DNA from: Fibrobacterota bacterium
GTDB taxonomy: Bacteria; Fibrobacterota; Fibrobacteria; UBA11236
Direction: 5' to 3'
Assembly: GCA_028287465.1 (NCBI GenBank)
Contig: JAQBPO010000028.1
Coordinates: 1-64,000, forward strand
Length of the DNA: 64,000 nucleotides
A program made the position numbers and the translations under genes. The notes beneath the pieces were generated by a model. It worked only from the letters and a program-made list of their open reading frames with translations. It did not search any database and was not told the origin of the DNA. The stretch's first letter is position 1, and every line of letters begins with the position of its first letter. Of this stretch, positions 341 through 5,918 are shown in pieces.

Positions 341-370
341 GGAAAAAGTGGCCGGGCCGTTCGCGACCCG
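341..370 (-). terminator. Intrinsic terminator, proximal copy, for the DUF3570 operon
   Basis: On the minus strand this reads CGGGUCG-CGAA-CGGCCCG followed by GCCACUUUUUCC. It is a 7-bp stem with one G-U pair, a CGAA loop and a U-tract, placed 16 nt after the DUF3570 stop codon. Confidence 0.75.
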
Positions 371-386
371 AATCGCTTACAAGGCC

Positions 387-1508
387 TCAGAAGGAAAAGC
401 GGATGCGGGTCTCGAGCAGGTTCGCGGAGAAGGCGGACCCTGCCAGATCGTTGAAGTACCGATTGTACAGGACCGAGACGGAACTGTTGGTGAGGAAATC
501 CCAGTCCGGATGGTTGCGGCCGAAGGTGCGCAGGAAGCAGGTCAGGCCCACTCCCGCCCCGTTGGAGCCGAAGGTTTTCAGCTTGTAATCCGAGGCGTCG
601 TAGACTTCCGTGCCGCCATGGGCGTAATCGGAGTACTCCGCTCCCACCTGATCGTAGTACCGGTAGTTGGGGCTGAGGATCCAATCCTTGGTGATGTACT
701 TGTTGAAGGTGAAGGTGGCGGTGTGGGACTTCAGGCCCCAATCGTCCCAGTAGTAGCGATAGTTGACGATGAAGGCCCCGTCGATATCGGCGACGTACTT
801 GCTGATTTCCCCCCAGGCGGCCTGGCGGTAGCGCATGCTCGGATGGCGTTCCGTGATGGTGTCCATCACCAAGGGCGTGGAGGTGGGGATCACGACCTTG
901 CGGTACGGATCGCTCTGGAAGCCGTGGATGCGCATGGCATCCGCGCCCATCCGCAGGACCGAAGTGGGGGAGAGCAGCTGCGATACGGATAGGGACGCCT
1001 GATGGGTTTCCTTGTACCGGTTCAGGATCGATCCGTCGGTCAGGATTTCCCCCACGGAGTCCACGGTGTATTGGCCCAGGAGCGAGATGGTGAAATTCTT
1101 CTGGGCGAGGTCCTGTGAAATGCCGCCGATGAAGGCCTGGGACTGGTAGTCCACTTCCTGGCTGAAGTAATAGCTGCCCACCAGGCGGGTATTGTCGCCC
1201 AACCCCTGCTCCACGCCTCCGATGATCTGGCCGCGGTTCTTGCGGAACGGGGACTTGCTGTTGCGCGGGGGCCTGGAGGCGCCGGTCACGCCGTCCAGGG
1301 GCGGCACCGTGGTCTGATCCAGCTCCACGTCCAGCAGGACCATGGTGCGTTGCCACAGGGTCTTGGCCAGGGAGAAGGCGGAGGTGGCCACGGTATTGTT
1401 GGCATTGTCGCCGAAGTAATAGACCGAGTACTCGATCTGATCCGCGATCACCGGGGCGCAGACCGCCGCCAGGGAAACGACGAGTCCTTTGAGGAAATGG
1501 CTCCGCAT
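387..1508 (-). CDS. DUF3570 outer-membrane beta-barrel protein
   Basis: The protein has a signal peptide (about residues 1-23, ending PVIA) followed by alternating aromatic and polar strands. It ends RIRFSF, with the terminal phenylalanine typical of barrels inserted by the Bam machinery. It matches the DUF3570 family, whose genes typically travel with a DUF4266 lipoprotein and a TlpA thioredoxin, exactly as here. The start chosen is the ATG at 1508; a GTG codon lies immediately before it. It is the last gene of the six-gene operon and is followed by two tandem terminators. The function of DUF3570 is not known. From context I infer an outer-membrane partner of a periplasmic redox module. Confidence 0.85.
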   Translation of the reverse strand: MRSHFLKGLVVSLAAVCAPVIADQIEYSVYYFGDNANNTVATSAFSLAKTLWQRTMVLLDVELDQTTVPPLDGVTGASRPPRNSKSPFRKNRGQIIGGVEQGLGDNTRLVGSYYFSQEVDYQSQAFIGGISQDLAQKNFTISLLGQYTVDSVGEILTDGSILNRYKETHQASLSVSQLLSPTSVLRMGADAMRIHGFQSDPYRKVVIPTSTPLVMDTITERHPSMRYRQAAWGEISKYVADIDGAFIVNYRYYWDDWGLKSHTATFTFNKYITKDWILSPNYRYYDQVGAEYSDYAHGGTEVYDASDYKLKTFGSNGAGVGLTCFLRTFGRNHPDWDFLTNSSVSVLYNRYFNDLAGSAFSANLLETRIRFSF

Positions 1509-1521
1509 CACGGTTTCCGCT

Positions 1522-1758
1522 TCACTTGGAACAACCGCAGCCGCCGCCCAGGCCCGTGCCCCCGCCGTTGCTGCCTTCCCGGGTGGAATAGAATTTCTGC
1601 ATCAGGGTCTGCTTGGCGAAGCCGGCGTTCGCGTCCATGATCGGATCTGCCAGGACCTCCCTCTCGAAGGGCTTGACCACGGCGCATCCCCCCAGGCCCA
1701 GGGACAGGGCGAGGGCCAGGACGGCCCATACCTCAGGGGCAAGGCGGTTGGGATTCAC
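1522..1758 (-). CDS. DUF4266 small lipoprotein with Gly/Cys-rich tail
   Basis: This 78-residue protein starts at a GTG that overlaps the TlpA stop codon (GTGA), with a GGAGG ribosome site inside the end of tlpA. A hydrophobic segment ends in the lipobox LGGC (Cys25), followed by VVKPFEREVLADPIM, the signature of DUF4266. The tail is a glycine run ending GCGCSK. The same frame stays open far upstream, but translational coupling and the lipobox fix the start. Two closely spaced tail cysteines beside a TlpA-type thioredoxin suggest a redox or metal-binding role; this is inference. Confidence 0.85.
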   Translation of the reverse strand: MNPNRLAPEVWAVLALALSLGLGGCAVVKPFEREVLADPIMDANAGFAKQTLMQKFYSTREGSNGGGTGLGGGCGCSK

Positions 1759-2282
1759 GGTTCCTCCATGAGCTTCTTGATTTCCGCTTCGATCTTCCCC
1801 GCGTCGCCTTCCGTATAGCCGTCGTGCCGGTACCGGAGCGTTCCCTTCCGGTCGATCAGGACCAGGGACGGCATGCCGCCAAGATCGTACTCGGAGGCCA
1901 CCGCGCGCTTGGCGTCGTGGAGGAATACCAGGGACGAGTCCCGGGATTTGACGAACTCGAGGGCGTTGGCGCGTTTCTCGTCGATGCTCACCGCAAGCAC
2001 CACCAGGTCCGGGTGGCGGGCGCGCATGGCCCCAAGTTGCGGCAGGGTCTTGCGGCAGGGCGGGCACCAGCTGGCCCAGAAATCCAGGGCCACCACCTTG
2101 CCTTGCAGGGACTTGAGGCTCACGTCGTGCTTGGCGCGGATGAGATCCGGAAGGGTGAATGCGGGCGCGGGTCCGCCCGGCGCGGGAGCGGCCGCAAGCG
2201 CGGCGCCGGCGGCGAGGCCGAGCCCCAGCACCATTCCCTGGAGCGCAACGCGGATGCGGGGGTGGATGTAAAGACGGTCCAT
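1755..2282 (-). CDS. TlpA/ResA-like periplasmic thioredoxin
   Basis: An N-terminal hydrophobic segment (about residues 12-32) exports or anchors the protein. A thioredoxin fold follows with the active site WCPPC (Cys73, Cys76) and the cis-proline region GGMPSLVLID. TlpA/ResA proteins reduce disulfides in the envelope, often in apocytochromes before haem attachment. The gene starts 9 nt after the stop of the dihaem HzsA-related gene and overlaps the DUF4266 gene by 4 nt. Likely substrates are therefore the CxxCH motifs of the former or the cysteine tail of the latter. Confidence 0.9.
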   Translation of the reverse strand: MDRLYIHPRIRVALQGMVLGLGLAAGAALAAAPAPGGPAPAFTLPDLIRAKHDVSLKSLQGKVVALDFWASWCPPCRKTLPQLGAMRARHPDLVVLAVSIDEKRANALEFVKSRDSSLVFLHDAKRAVASEYDLGGMPSLVLIDRKGTLRYRHDGYTEGDAGKIEAEIKKLMEEP

Positions 2283-2291
2283 GCAGGCGCG

Positions 2292-4514
2292 CTATTTCTT
2301 CGGGACCGAGTTCATGAATTGCACGCCCATGTCCATCCACTCCACCAGGGTGAGCAGATCGGCGTTCCCCGCGGCGAAGACGTCGATGCGGCCGCTGGCG
2401 GAATCCTTCTGCCAGATGGCCGAATGGTCGTAGGAAGGCTGGCGGAACTGGCCCTTGCCGCCGCCGGACTGCTTGTTGAACAGGACCCAGGCCAGCGGGC
2501 TCTGGCGCGCGCCGTTGTCCGTGGCGTAGTTGATCTTCTGGCCGGCCACGCCCGTGACGTAGCCGTTACCGGCGGTCAGGCGCTCGTACACGCTGGTGGT
2601 GCCGTGGTTGGTGAGGGCCGTGTCCGGCTGGTTCTCGAGGACCAGGCCCCCGCCCTTGGCGGCCGCCTCGGAGGCCCCGTGGCAGGAGATGCAGCGGTTG
2701 TCGAGGATGGATTGGACGGTACCGGCATTCGCGGCCGCCGAAGTGTCCCTGAGCGTGTAGAAATTGGTGATGGCGCCGCGGGCGGAAGGATGCGCATCCA
2801 CCTTCTGGGCATTGGCGAATCCGGACAGGTACCGCTTGACCGCTCCCAGATCGAAGGACACCGAGGCGTCCGTCTGATCGATGGCGAAGTGGGTGATGTC
2901 CGCGTCCTTCTCCCGCACGCCGTGGCAGCCCGTGCACATGCGCTGTTCCCCGGGCATCACGTTGATCCACTGCAGCTGGTTCACCAGCATCATGCCGTTC
3001 TCGTCCAGGGTCTGCACGTGCATGGGGGTATTGGCCGGCACCTCGATGGAGAAGGAGCTGTCCGCGCGCACGTCCGCGTACCCGACCACGCGCTGCCGCT
3101 CGAATTCCGTATTGCCCATGGACTGGCCGCAGAAGTCGCAATTGGCCGGGGTGGAGACGGCGGCCAATACGCGCACGAACTTGACCTTGCCGTCCAGGTC
3201 CGCCCCGCGGAGCTGGCCGTCGCTCTGGCGGCTGTAGACGTTGGCGTCGAAGAACATGCCGGTCTTTACGTTTTCCGCGATGGCCTTCTGGACCAGGGGG
3301 TTCATGGCGTAGGGCCTGACCGGGAGCGTGCGCGGCGCCAGCACCACGGGATCGTAATCATTGTAGTCCGGATCCGCGTGGACCAGGCGCGGGGTGCCGC
3401 CGGTCTTTTCGATGATGAAGAGATCGTAATTGACCTTGCCGTCGATGTCCCCGCCGGTCTCGTTGGCGGATTCCGCGACCAGGATCTTCTCCACGCCGCC
3501 GTCCATGATGGGATAGGGCGTCTTGAATATGGCCTGGGACGTCTTCTGGGTATTGTTGTAGGGGCTGGTCGAAGGGGTGATGATTTGCGGAGGCGAGGTG
3601 AACTTGGAGAGATCCACGATGCAGATGGCGCCGCCTTCGAAGTCGGAAGCGCGTTCCATCAGGGAGGCCACTATCCCGCCGTCGCTGAGCTCGCGGGCTT
3701 CCATGAAGGTGCGGCTTCCGCTTCCCATGCCCTGGGCGAAGGTCTCGTCCGCGCCGTAGAGCACGAACTGGCCCGTTCCGTCCGGGTTGACGGTGAAGAG
3801 GGGCATCTTGTTGGGCCCGCCCAGGTGGTCCCAGCGCGTGTAGAAGACCTTGCCGCTGGAATGCACGAAGGGATTCTGGTCATGGCTCTGGTTGAACGTG
3901 ATCTGGCGGACGTTGATCAGGAACCCCTTGGGGCCGCGTTCGCCCACGAAAAGCTGGGGGACGATGCGGCGCTCGTATTCGTCCCGGACCTGGTTGATGG
4001 TCGAACCGAACACGATATGGGTCTCGTCGATATAGGCCGGATCCATGTCGTCGTAACCCGCCGGGGCGGTCAACTGGACCAGGTTGGTGCCATCCGCGTT
4101 CATTTCGTAGATGGCGAATCGGGGCCGCTCCTCGCGGGGCCCGGACTTGCGCATGGAGAAGAGGATTTTCGTCCCGTCGAAGGAGGCTTCCGGATCCAGG
4201 GCGGCGCCCCATTCGCTTTCATTGGGCCGGGCCCGGGTCCACTGTTCCGTCAGGTTGGTGACGGTTCCGGTGGGCGAGATGGGGGACAGGGACACCAGAT
4301 CCGTGCCCGGATGGAACTCGTCGGGATTCGCGGCCATGGCGCTGGCGCGGTTCTGGTTCATGCCGCCCACGCTCGGCTCCTTCACGAACACGATCCGGGC
4401 CTGGCCATGGCGTTCCATGATCTGATCGGCGGGCTCAAGGCAGGAAACCAGCAGACCGCCCGCGACCAGGGATCCCATCGCGCGCAAGGACACTCTGAGG
4501 TGGTTCGGTTTCAT
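2292..4514 (-). CDS. HzsA-related dihaem c-type lipoprotein with beta-propeller
   Basis: This 740-residue lipoprotein has the lipobox LVSC (Cys25). The N-terminal half contains repeated PD40/TolB-type propeller strands such as SFDGTKILFSMR and DGTNLVQLT. A CxxC pair without histidine lies at 459-462. Two haem-binding motifs follow, CTGCH (527-531) and CISCH (608-612). This layout, a propeller followed by a middle and a C-terminal domain each with one c-type haem, matches the HzsA-related family, named after the alpha subunit of hydrazine synthase. Hydrazine chemistry is not implied, because no beta or gamma subunit genes are seen. It probably handles electrons at the cell surface or in the periplasm, with the adjacent TlpA and barrels as partners. 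Confidence 0.8.
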   Translation of the reverse strand: MKPNHLRVSLRAMGSLVAGGLLVSCLEPADQIMERHGQARIVFVKEPSVGGMNQNRASAMAANPDEFHPGTDLVSLSPISPTGTVTNLTEQWTRARPNESEWGAALDPEASFDGTKILFSMRKSGPREERPRFAIYEMNADGTNLVQLTAPAGYDDMDPAYIDETHIVFGSTINQVRDEYERRIVPQLFVGERGPKGFLINVRQITFNQSHDQNPFVHSSGKVFYTRWDHLGGPNKMPLFTVNPDGTGQFVLYGADETFAQGMGSGSRTFMEARELSDGGIVASLMERASDFEGGAICIVDLSKFTSPPQIITPSTSPYNNTQKTSQAIFKTPYPIMDGGVEKILVAESANETGGDIDGKVNYDLFIIEKTGGTPRLVHADPDYNDYDPVVLAPRTLPVRPYAMNPLVQKAIAENVKTGMFFDANVYSRQSDGQLRGADLDGKVKFVRVLAAVSTPANCDFCGQSMGNTEFERQRVVGYADVRADSSFSIEVPANTPMHVQTLDENGMMLVNQLQWINVMPGEQRMCTGCHGVREKDADITHFAIDQTDASVSFDLGAVKRYLSGFANAQKVDAHPSARGAITNFYTLRDTSAAANAGTVQSILDNRCISCHGASEAAAKGGGLVLENQPDTALTNHGTTSVYERLTAGNGYVTGVAGQKINYATDNGARQSPLAWVLFNKQSGGGKGQFRQPSYDHSAIWQKDSASGRIDVFAAGNADLLTLVEWMDMGVQFMNSVPKK

Positions 4515-4594
4515 CGGTTTCCCCCTTGTTGCGGGCCCGGTACCGCTCCCTTGGAGCAGGGGCGTTTCCGGACCGGTTCACCCTATGCCAGGAT

Positions 4595-5344
4595 TCAAAA
4601 GTACTTCTGGACCCCGACCAATACGACGAAGTTCTGCGTCAGGGACGGATTGGTCTTCAGCTTCTGCGAGTAGACATGGTCGTGGACCCCGTAATTGAGG
4701 GCGTAACGCGCGTTTTTGGGCCCGAAAGGGAGGTTGGTGCGGTTCCCGAATCCGGCGACCGCGCCGATATTGGGGATGCCTCCCTGCCATACCGCGGTGA
4801 TGCCGCCGACGAAATACGGGTAAAGACCTCCCGAACGGCCATCGCCGCGGGTCAGTCCCGTGAGGGTGTACCCTCCCAGGGCTTCCCCCGCGATCATGAA
4901 GCTATGCGGGGTCTGCGTCCCGCCGATGATGCTTTCCGCGAAACTGGATTGCACGGTGCCGATGCCTGAGGTGAATTGGAAGAAGAAGGCCTGGCCCTCC
5001 GGATAAAGGTCCCAGAAAAGATTGGTGTAGGGATTGGTGCCCAGCACTTCCGCGGCGTAGAACCCGACGTTCATGCCGAAGGCCTGGGCATAGTTCCGGT
5101 TGGGACCCGGGGAAAAGGCGGCCTCGGAGCGCCGGGAACCCGATTCGCGGGCGGAGGATTCCGGTTCGCGGCTTTCCCGGACCGGCGCGGTCGCCGTCTG
5201 GTTTACCGGTACGAAAACGGTTTCGGCCGGGGCGCGGGATCCCCGGTCCGACAAGGGGGGCTTCATCGCGCCGGTCCCTTTGCGGGGCGCCGACCAGGCT
5301 GCGGTCGCGAAGGCCGCCAGCACCAGCATTTCAACCAAACGCAA
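4595..5344 (-). CDS. Putative outer-membrane barrel protein
   Basis: A signal peptide (about residues 1-19, ending AWSA) precedes a low-complexity Arg/Ser/Glu linker (about 25-80). The C-terminal part is strand-rich, with aromatic residues spaced as in barrels, and ends VGVQKYF. The gene overlaps its upstream neighbour by 14 nt and lies 80 nt before the HzsA-related gene, so it is probably co-transcribed. I do not recognise a named family. A porin or scaffold for the dihaem protein is a guess from position. Confidence 0.65.
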   Translation of the reverse strand: MRLVEMLVLAAFATAAWSAPRKGTGAMKPPLSDRGSRAPAETVFVPVNQTATAPVRESREPESSARESGSRRSEAAFSPGPNRNYAQAFGMNVGFYAAEVLGTNPYTNLFWDLYPEGQAFFFQFTSGIGTVQSSFAESIIGGTQTPHSFMIAGEALGGYTLTGLTRGDGRSGGLYPYFVGGITAVWQGGIPNIGAVAGFGNRTNLPFGPKNARYALNYGVHDHVYSQKLKTNPSLTQNFVVLVGVQKYF

Positions 5345-5918
5345 AGATGACCCCCAGGCTGGAAGATTGGAATATCAGCAATTCCTTGCGATGGTCCTGC
5401 TGGTTGTCGATGCGGGTGAACAATTGCTTGGTTTCGAAGCGGATGCCGATCTTGGAATTGATGTAATACCGGAGCCCGCCCCCGAAGCAGAGGCCCACCG
5501 AGGAAATGGTCTGGTCGCCCACGGAGTTCAAAGGCACCGTCAGGAACAGACCGCCACCGATGATACCGTAAGGCACGGTTCTGGCGGAGTTGGCCAAATC
5601 GAGTTTGGCGTTCACGGTGATGGGATACAGGGTCGCCACGCGGCCGATGACCTGGTCGACGGCGAACTCGCAGGAGACCGGGAAACCCATGCTGGCGCGC
5701 ACCCCCAGGAGGGCGCTCCCGCCCATGAAGCCCACGTTCGGCGAAACCTCGAAGGGCATGTGGTCGATGCGGCGCACATCGGTTACGGACCCGGCGGGCG
5801 TTGACTGGGAGACGGAGGCGGACCGGGTTTCCCCGGGTTGGAAGGCAACGGCCGCGAGAGCGGTCGCATGCAGGGCCAAGGCCAGGAAAAATCCCGGTGA
5901 TGTCGATCGTATCCTCAT
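5331..5918 (-). CDS. Small outer-membrane beta-barrel protein, first gene of redox operon
   Basis: The signal peptide covers about residues 1-25 (FFLALALHATALAAVA). The mature part has amphipathic strands and ends SLGVIFAFG, as in 8-stranded OmpA/OmpW-like barrels. No Shine-Dalgarno sequence precedes the ATG. Instead a TATAAT hexamer ends 9 nt upstream, which suggests a nearly leaderless transcript. The next gene starts inside its last codons. Family unknown beyond general barrel character. Confidence 0.65.
   Translation of the reverse strand: MRIRSTSPGFFLALALHATALAAVAFQPGETRSASVSQSTPAGSVTDVRRIDHMPFEVSPNVGFMGGSALLGVRASMGFPVSCEFAVDQVIGRVATLYPITVNAKLDLANSARTVPYGIIGGGLFLTVPLNSVGDQTISSVGLCFGGGLRYYINSKIGIRFETKQLFTRIDNQQDHRKELLIFQSSSLGVIFAFG

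Follow-up and report, generated by a model that had tools for sequence, protein, structure and literature searches.

Gene clusters for extracytosolic flavinylation that combine ApbE, DUF3570, a thioredoxin-like protein, and DUF4266, with or without DsbD, were described by Méheust et al. in 2021. In the accessible part of that report, the DUF3570 protein of Chlorobium luteolum was found by experiment to be flavinylated at two motifs and is the sole DUF3570 for which covalent flavin mononucleotide (FMN) was demonstrated; DUF4266, which is found with DUF3570 and ApbE, and frequently also with DsbD, across hundreds of clusters, was proposed to cycle (PMC8238504). A second line of work concerns HzsA, the alpha subunit of hydrazine synthase (HZS). 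Its haem I is ligated by Tyr591, and the histidine of the haem I CxxCH motif binds zinc along with Cys303 (PMC12758564; PMC12607021). The non-anammox homologues of this subunit studied by Hägglund et al. in 2025 (PMC12758564), most of which carry two haem motifs, have lost key ligands and lie beside a fused beta-gamma homologue. Here, we describe an operon in which the two meet. It lies in the first 64 kb of contig JAQBPO010000028.1 (C33; this stretch of 64,000 nucleotides is the window) from a Fibrobacterota bacterium (assembly GCA_028287465.1; 5.8 Mb in 100 contigs) and encodes two putative outer-membrane proteins (OMP1 and OMP2), an HZS-alpha-like dihaem lipoprotein, a TlpA-type thioredoxin, a DUF4266 lipoprotein, and a DUF3570 protein.

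The TlpA-DUF4266-DUF3570 half of this operon is the published flavinylation module. As far as the accessible part of the 2021 report goes, the likeness covers a thioredoxin-like protein, DUF4266 with a C-terminal CxC, DUF3570 with an ApbE acceptor motif, and ApbE itself, which adjoins the operon in most loci of a second phylum and has an unlinked copy in this genome. The operon differs in adding the HZS-alpha-like dihaem lipoprotein and OMP1, in having one flavin motif instead of two, and in that DsbD is not adjacent and, in this genus, neither is ApbE (PMC8238504). An HZS-like partner for flavinylation clusters is not described in that part of the report. A preliminary description of this DNA had suggested an unrecognised electron-transfer or small-molecule redox system; this does not hold for the thiol-flavin half, which was already published, and it does hold for the attached dihaem protein with its OMP partner. 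What appears to be new is an HZS-alpha-type dihaem lipoprotein fused to the flavinylation module, together with a conserved OMP partner. Composition, homology, motif counts, and a gene order kept across two phyla are direct observations here. The proposed envelope redox role is supported, and we put at roughly one in two the probability that the operon encodes an outer-envelope thiol-flavin-haem electron-transfer unit.

Ancestry and ligands of the dihaem lipoprotein

The 740-amino-acid (aa) lipoprotein is a true homologue of HZS alpha. A single-sequence search of the Protein Data Bank (PDB) gave HZS alpha as the sole match (5c2v, E 2e-12), and a profile of 19 operon-linked relatives matched the same entry at E 1.6e-37 over the propeller, the middle domain, and the second haem motif. 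The domain order is that of HzsA, the HZS_alpha domain is present (Pfam, E 7e-21), and the predicted overall fold is also that of HzsA. When an AlphaFold2 (AF2) model of moderate confidence (predicted local distance difference test [pLDDT] 62; predicted template modelling [TM] score 0.69) was searched with Foldseek, both 5c2v alpha chains came out on top (5c2v_A, E 1.1e-22, TM 0.51), followed by generic propellers at 2e-7. Because of the profile match and this Foldseek ranking, we consider the ancestry secure. The relationship to HZS alpha had been suggested in the preliminary description, and Pfam, the PDB profile, and Foldseek agree on it; structure prediction, a check named there, retrieved the HZS-alpha structure first. 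The lipobox cysteine was kept in all 18 of the operon-linked HzsA-like proteins that have an N terminus.

Hydrazine synthesis was rejected as the function of this protein, since the haem I tyrosine, the zinc cysteine, and the beta and gamma subunits are all absent. In the alignment of operon-linked proteins, a tyrosine at H+4 of haem I, equivalent to Tyr591, was found in 0 of 19; the single H+4 tyrosine belongs to motif two of one protein in which the first cysteine is missing. The residue aligned with Cys303 is Asp in the genus or His in the second phylum (Cys303 is missing in Scalinduaceae too [PMC12758564]). At haem II, no histidine beyond H612 was invariant in the 19 proteins that could stand for the distal His772. 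The NCBIfam equivalog model for HZS alpha (NF052339) scored 97.5 bits against a cut-off of 800. The preliminary description had noted that HZS beta/gamma is absent, and no full-length homologue of it was found in this genome, nor in the other carriers tested, where, as here, matches to a beta-gamma homologue were short, partial, and mostly to its C-terminal CCP-like part. The operon protein thus differs from HzsA in its ligands, its missing partners, and its lipid anchor, and it shares the loss of key ligands with the homologues of Hägglund et al. but not their co-location with a beta-gamma homologue.

In the same alignment, each of the 13 proteins from the second phylum carries His in the columns of V251, D256, and E272 (FH.YGPH...FFH), where the genus has Val, Asp, and Glu; these three His align with the Cys303 region of HZS and may form a metal site. 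A cysteine pair, C459-x-x-C462, was considered as a target of TlpA, as it is missing in the genus only in a genome with a split operon (G001, see below). We dropped this idea, since the pair is also absent throughout the second phylum and is a genus trait with too few examples. The G001 protein lacks C298 as well as the pair, and both are present in the other five genus members.

H230 is the only histidine outside the CxxCH motifs that was invariant in all 19 operon-linked proteins, and its position is Tyr in 29 of 31 other HZS_alpha proteins sharing the RW[DE] motif, as would be expected of an active-site change. With haem I of the alpha subunit proposed as an active site of HZS (PMC12607021) and a wider family with alternative substrates suspected by others (PMC10732223), the lipoprotein could be an enzyme and not part of a conduit. 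It would then reduce or oxidise a small molecule (a nitrogen oxide, hydroxylamine, peroxide, or an organic substrate) at haem I, TlpA, DUF4266, and flavin-bearing DUF3570 would just supply electrons, and the barrels would be substrate pores. We find this doubtful, given that the defining HZS haem I ligands are absent and that the partners of related DUF4266-DUF3570 clusters are plain small cytochromes, a pairing that points to a carrier.

Conservation across the genus and a second phylum

Each of the six genus genomes examined has one HZS_alpha gene, and all six have the combination of OMP, HzsA, and flavin module. The six genes are consecutive on a single contig in four of them. In G005, a contig end cuts the operon within the HzsA gene, and the remainder is on another contig. 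In G001, the OMP1-OMP2-HzsA half, beside the putative pyrophosphatase gene, is on a different contig from TlpA-DUF4266-DUF3570, which is near SucA-side neighbours (L036, L107); this is either a rearrangement or an assembly fault. A scan of the genome collection with the genus alignment matched only other metagenome-assembled genomes of Fibrobacteria because the peptide patterns are genus specific.

Among nine HZS_alpha-bearing genomes from outside Fibrobacterota, one also has DUF4266, and there the two genes adjoin. Upon searching 80 genomes of this second phylum, we found HZS_alpha in 14, with 13 belonging to the operon-linked clade and the fourteenth (G460) being of a different kind. The order OMP1-HzsA-TlpA-DUF4266-DUF3570 was complete in 11 of the 13 loci, and the other 2 are cut by contig ends. 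No OMP2 relative was found in the second-phylum loci. A small CX4CH gene lies 5′ of OMP1 in 12 of 12 loci with room for it, and just past it, within about 1.5 kb upstream, is ApbE in 8 of 10 loci with room (E 5e-80 at L159). At L159 (518-5840), the operon goes on with an NHL/FlgD protein, a lipoprotein, a small protein, and an SH3 plus OMP_b-brl protein, and this continuation is kept in most second-phylum loci.

A branch with an SH-aLRT of 90 separates the operon-linked proteins of the two phyla from 42 others in a tree of 61 HZS_alpha proteins. Support for the group is moderate, because this was a quick tree with some long branches. The operon-linked proteins form a clade separate from the other HZS_alpha sampled, in a tree built without the sequences of PMC12758564.

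The different contigs in G001 would fit two unrelated operons that lie side by side by chance. We rejected this as highly improbable: the order is the same in 11 complete second-phylum loci with none contradicting, and linkage kept in both the genus and a second phylum is not chance. Co-occurrence of the gene families, on which the preliminary description depended, thus reaches far beyond this genome, and the operon is more widespread than was claimed there, with half of it known. It gives non-anammox HZS-alpha homologues and DUF3570 flavin clusters a partner each.

Flavin motif and possible electron path

Among 26 aligned DUF3570 proteins, the motif D-x-x-[ST]-x-A-[ST] occurred exactly once, in the form D-x-x-T-x-A-S, in 18 of 18 linked to HzsA and twice in 8 of 8 that are not. 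In the second phylum, the central Gly of the motif is replaced by Ser, Thr, or Ala, so flavinylation of these proteins is likely but less certain. The DUF4266 tail, GGGC[GA]C, is conserved across both phyla. This genome encodes one ApbE, on contig C43, and one DsbD_TM protein, both unlinked to the operon, and no ApbE linkage was seen in the genus. Loss of ApbE beyond the contig end is an explanation that we found unsupported: the next open reading frame (ORF), convergent on the opposite strand and presumably DinB-like, follows, and on longer contigs from other genus members the same genes come next with no ApbE among them.

The model of DUF3570, which is of good quality, has sixteen main strands by our count and a C-terminal Phe, and its best Foldseek matches were porins of the Occ/OprD, FadL, and OmpG types. 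Long loops come after strands 3, 9, and 13, and the flavin motif is located in the first of them (residues 70 to 88), opposite the termini. In outer-membrane barrels, both termini are usually periplasmic. If this is so here, the long loops would be extracellular, and the flavin motif is predicted to be on the extracellular side or in the lumen of the barrel. The earlier assignment of DUF3570 as a barrel agrees with this prediction and falls short in one respect, as the family is not a plain barrel but a flavin acceptor (PMC8238504, accessible part). DUF3570 is not called a barrel in that part of the report, and a predicted barrel with its flavin site in an outward loop bears on every DUF3570 cluster.

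In the electron-transfer unit that we favour, DsbD, encoded elsewhere, would reduce TlpA, and TlpA and DUF4266 would hand electrons to FMN carried by the DUF3570 barrel. Exchange of electrons between this barrel and the dihaem protein would take place at the outer membrane or across it, with the dihaem protein as a terminal carrier or reductase; the flow may instead run inwards. A bolder proposal, which we make tentatively and think unlikely as it stands, is a new outer-membrane conduit, a flavin counterpart of porin-cytochrome conduits. In it, an outward-exposed flavin, covalently attached to a 16-stranded barrel, would shuttle electrons between a thiol relay in the periplasm and a dihaem lipoprotein derived from HZS alpha. 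If true, this would be an outer-membrane electron path based on flavin instead of many haems, and it would hint at possible activities of the proteins from which an enzyme central to the nitrogen cycle arose.

Several points weigh against the favoured electron-transfer unit. The model of the HzsA-like protein is of low confidence, with the haem II domain mostly below pLDDT 50, and the orientation of the DUF3570 barrel is assumed from standard topology. ApbE is not inside the operon of the window. The haem half and the thiol-flavin half are separable, since G001 has them on different contigs. Lastly, the role of TlpA and DUF4266 could lie in the maturation of haem or protein and not in electron supply.

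This last point has some backing in the wider pattern of these genes, which also speaks for the electron-transfer unit. In Fibrobacterota, a CxxCH-bearing gene lies directly upstream of 26 of 28 DUF4266 ORFs (found by pattern), compared to 31 of 272 background genes (11%), an association that a binomial test overstates because related genomes are not independent. The upstream gene mostly encodes a small lipoprotein with 2 to 4 haems, and in our operon the HZS-alpha-like protein takes its place. Such clusters resemble the operon in having a c-type cytochrome lipoprotein beside the flavin module and differ in the size of the cytochrome (about 200 to 290 aa), in the two motifs of DUF3570, and in TlpA usually being last. 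As cytochrome genes nearly always adjoin these clusters and the best named relatives of TlpA are ResA and DsbE/CcmG, both proteins might be maturation factors that keep the CxxCH cysteines reduced for haem attachment, leaving an electron path only from flavin to haem. This seems unlikely to us in view of the conserved C-terminal CxC of DUF4266 and of the hundreds of clusters in which it stands with DUF3570 and ApbE, many of them including DsbD (PMC8238504, accessible part).

The relay could also serve metal uptake through the barrels by reducing Fe(III) or some other metal at the cell surface, and the accessible part of the same report lists the iron transporter VIT1 in 25 DUF3570 clusters elsewhere (PMC8238504). 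We regard metal acquisition as quite improbable, as no metal transporter was recognised in this operon or in the Pfam-annotated second-phylum operon (L159), to which the search was confined.

Operon layout and related clusters

Genes were taken from a codon-usage caller in this GC-rich DNA. All six ORFs previously placed between 5918 and 387 are present on the minus strand and adjoin by overlaps or gaps of at most 80 bp (Table 1). The two putative barrel genes overlap by 14 bp (the second begins at about 5344), an 80-bp gap leads to the dihaem lipoprotein gene, and TlpA follows after 9 bp. TlpA and DUF4266 overlap by 4 bp, and about 10 bp separate DUF4266 from DUF3570. OMP2 matched no Pfam family, and its barrel call comes from a signal peptide and a C-terminal aromatic residue only. 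The divergent upstream neighbour (691 aa) is one that we take to be a membrane pyrophosphatase. Downstream, two terminator-like hairpins stand before the convergent ORF; terminator-like sites in the region number 7, compared to 5.5 ± 2.2 in shuffles, so the count is not significant.

Table 1. Features of the operon, with positions in the window
Feature	Position	Strand	Evidence
OMP1, small outer-membrane beta-barrel, 195 aa	5331..5918	-	OMP_b-brl E 9e-5, sub-threshold; homologue at same place in second phylum (phmmer down to 1e-10)
OMP2, putative barrel, 244-249 aa, genus-specific	4595..5344	-	No family; kept in genus
HZS-alpha-like dihaem lipoprotein, 740 aa: lipobox C25, propeller, HZS_alpha middle domain, C-terminal cytochrome domain	2292..4514	-	Pfam, PDB profile, Foldseek, tree
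H230	3825..3827	-	Alignment of 19 operon-linked proteins
C459-x-x-C462, in 5/6 genus members	3129..3140	-	Alignment
Haem I motif C527-T-G-C530-H531, H+4 Glu, not Tyr	2922..2936	-	Alignment
Haem II motif C608-I-S-C611-H612, invariant	2679..2693	-	Alignment
TlpA-type periplasmic thioredoxin, 175 aa	1755..2282	-	Pfam (Redoxin/AhpC-TSA E 3e-21)
TlpA active site C73-P-P-C76	2055..2066	-	Sequence
DUF4266 lipoprotein, 78 aa	1522..1758	-	PF14086 E 1.6e-15
DUF4266 C-terminal C-G-C tail	1531..1539	-	Sequence
DUF3570, predicted 16-stranded outer-membrane barrel and flavin acceptor	387..1511	-	PF12094 E 3e-38; AF2 pLDDT 86.7; Foldseek porins
Flavinylation motif D73-G-V-T-G-A-S79, loop between strands 3 and 4	1275..1295	-	Alignment and predicted model; type of motif flavinylated in C. 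luteolum DUF3570 (PMC8238504)
Two terminator-like hairpins 3′ of DUF3570	311-332, 352-371	-	Pattern scan only

Further DUF3570 and HZS_alpha genes were seen in the same genome and phylum. The genome that carries the operon has a second cluster (L128, G000:C13, 12650-15461) encoding a small dihaem lipoprotein, DUF4266, a two-motif DUF3570, and TlpA, and a third DUF3570 (L127, G000:C97, 9253-10365) that has a single SGAS motif and is preceded, at a distance of about 2 kb, by a weak DUF4266. In another family of the same order, one strand of L045 (G010:C43, 239-11160) encodes HZS_alpha, an HZS beta-gamma-like protein (propeller plus CCP_MauG), a porin-like protein, a dihaem lipoprotein, DUF4266, and DUF3570. 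This locus attaches the flavin module to an hzsABC-like cluster and is a separate link of HZS-type proteins with the module. The Fibrobacterota families f10, f12, and f13 (e.g., L007, L050, L053, and L054) have up to six HZS_alpha paralogues per genome, mostly of about 900 aa.

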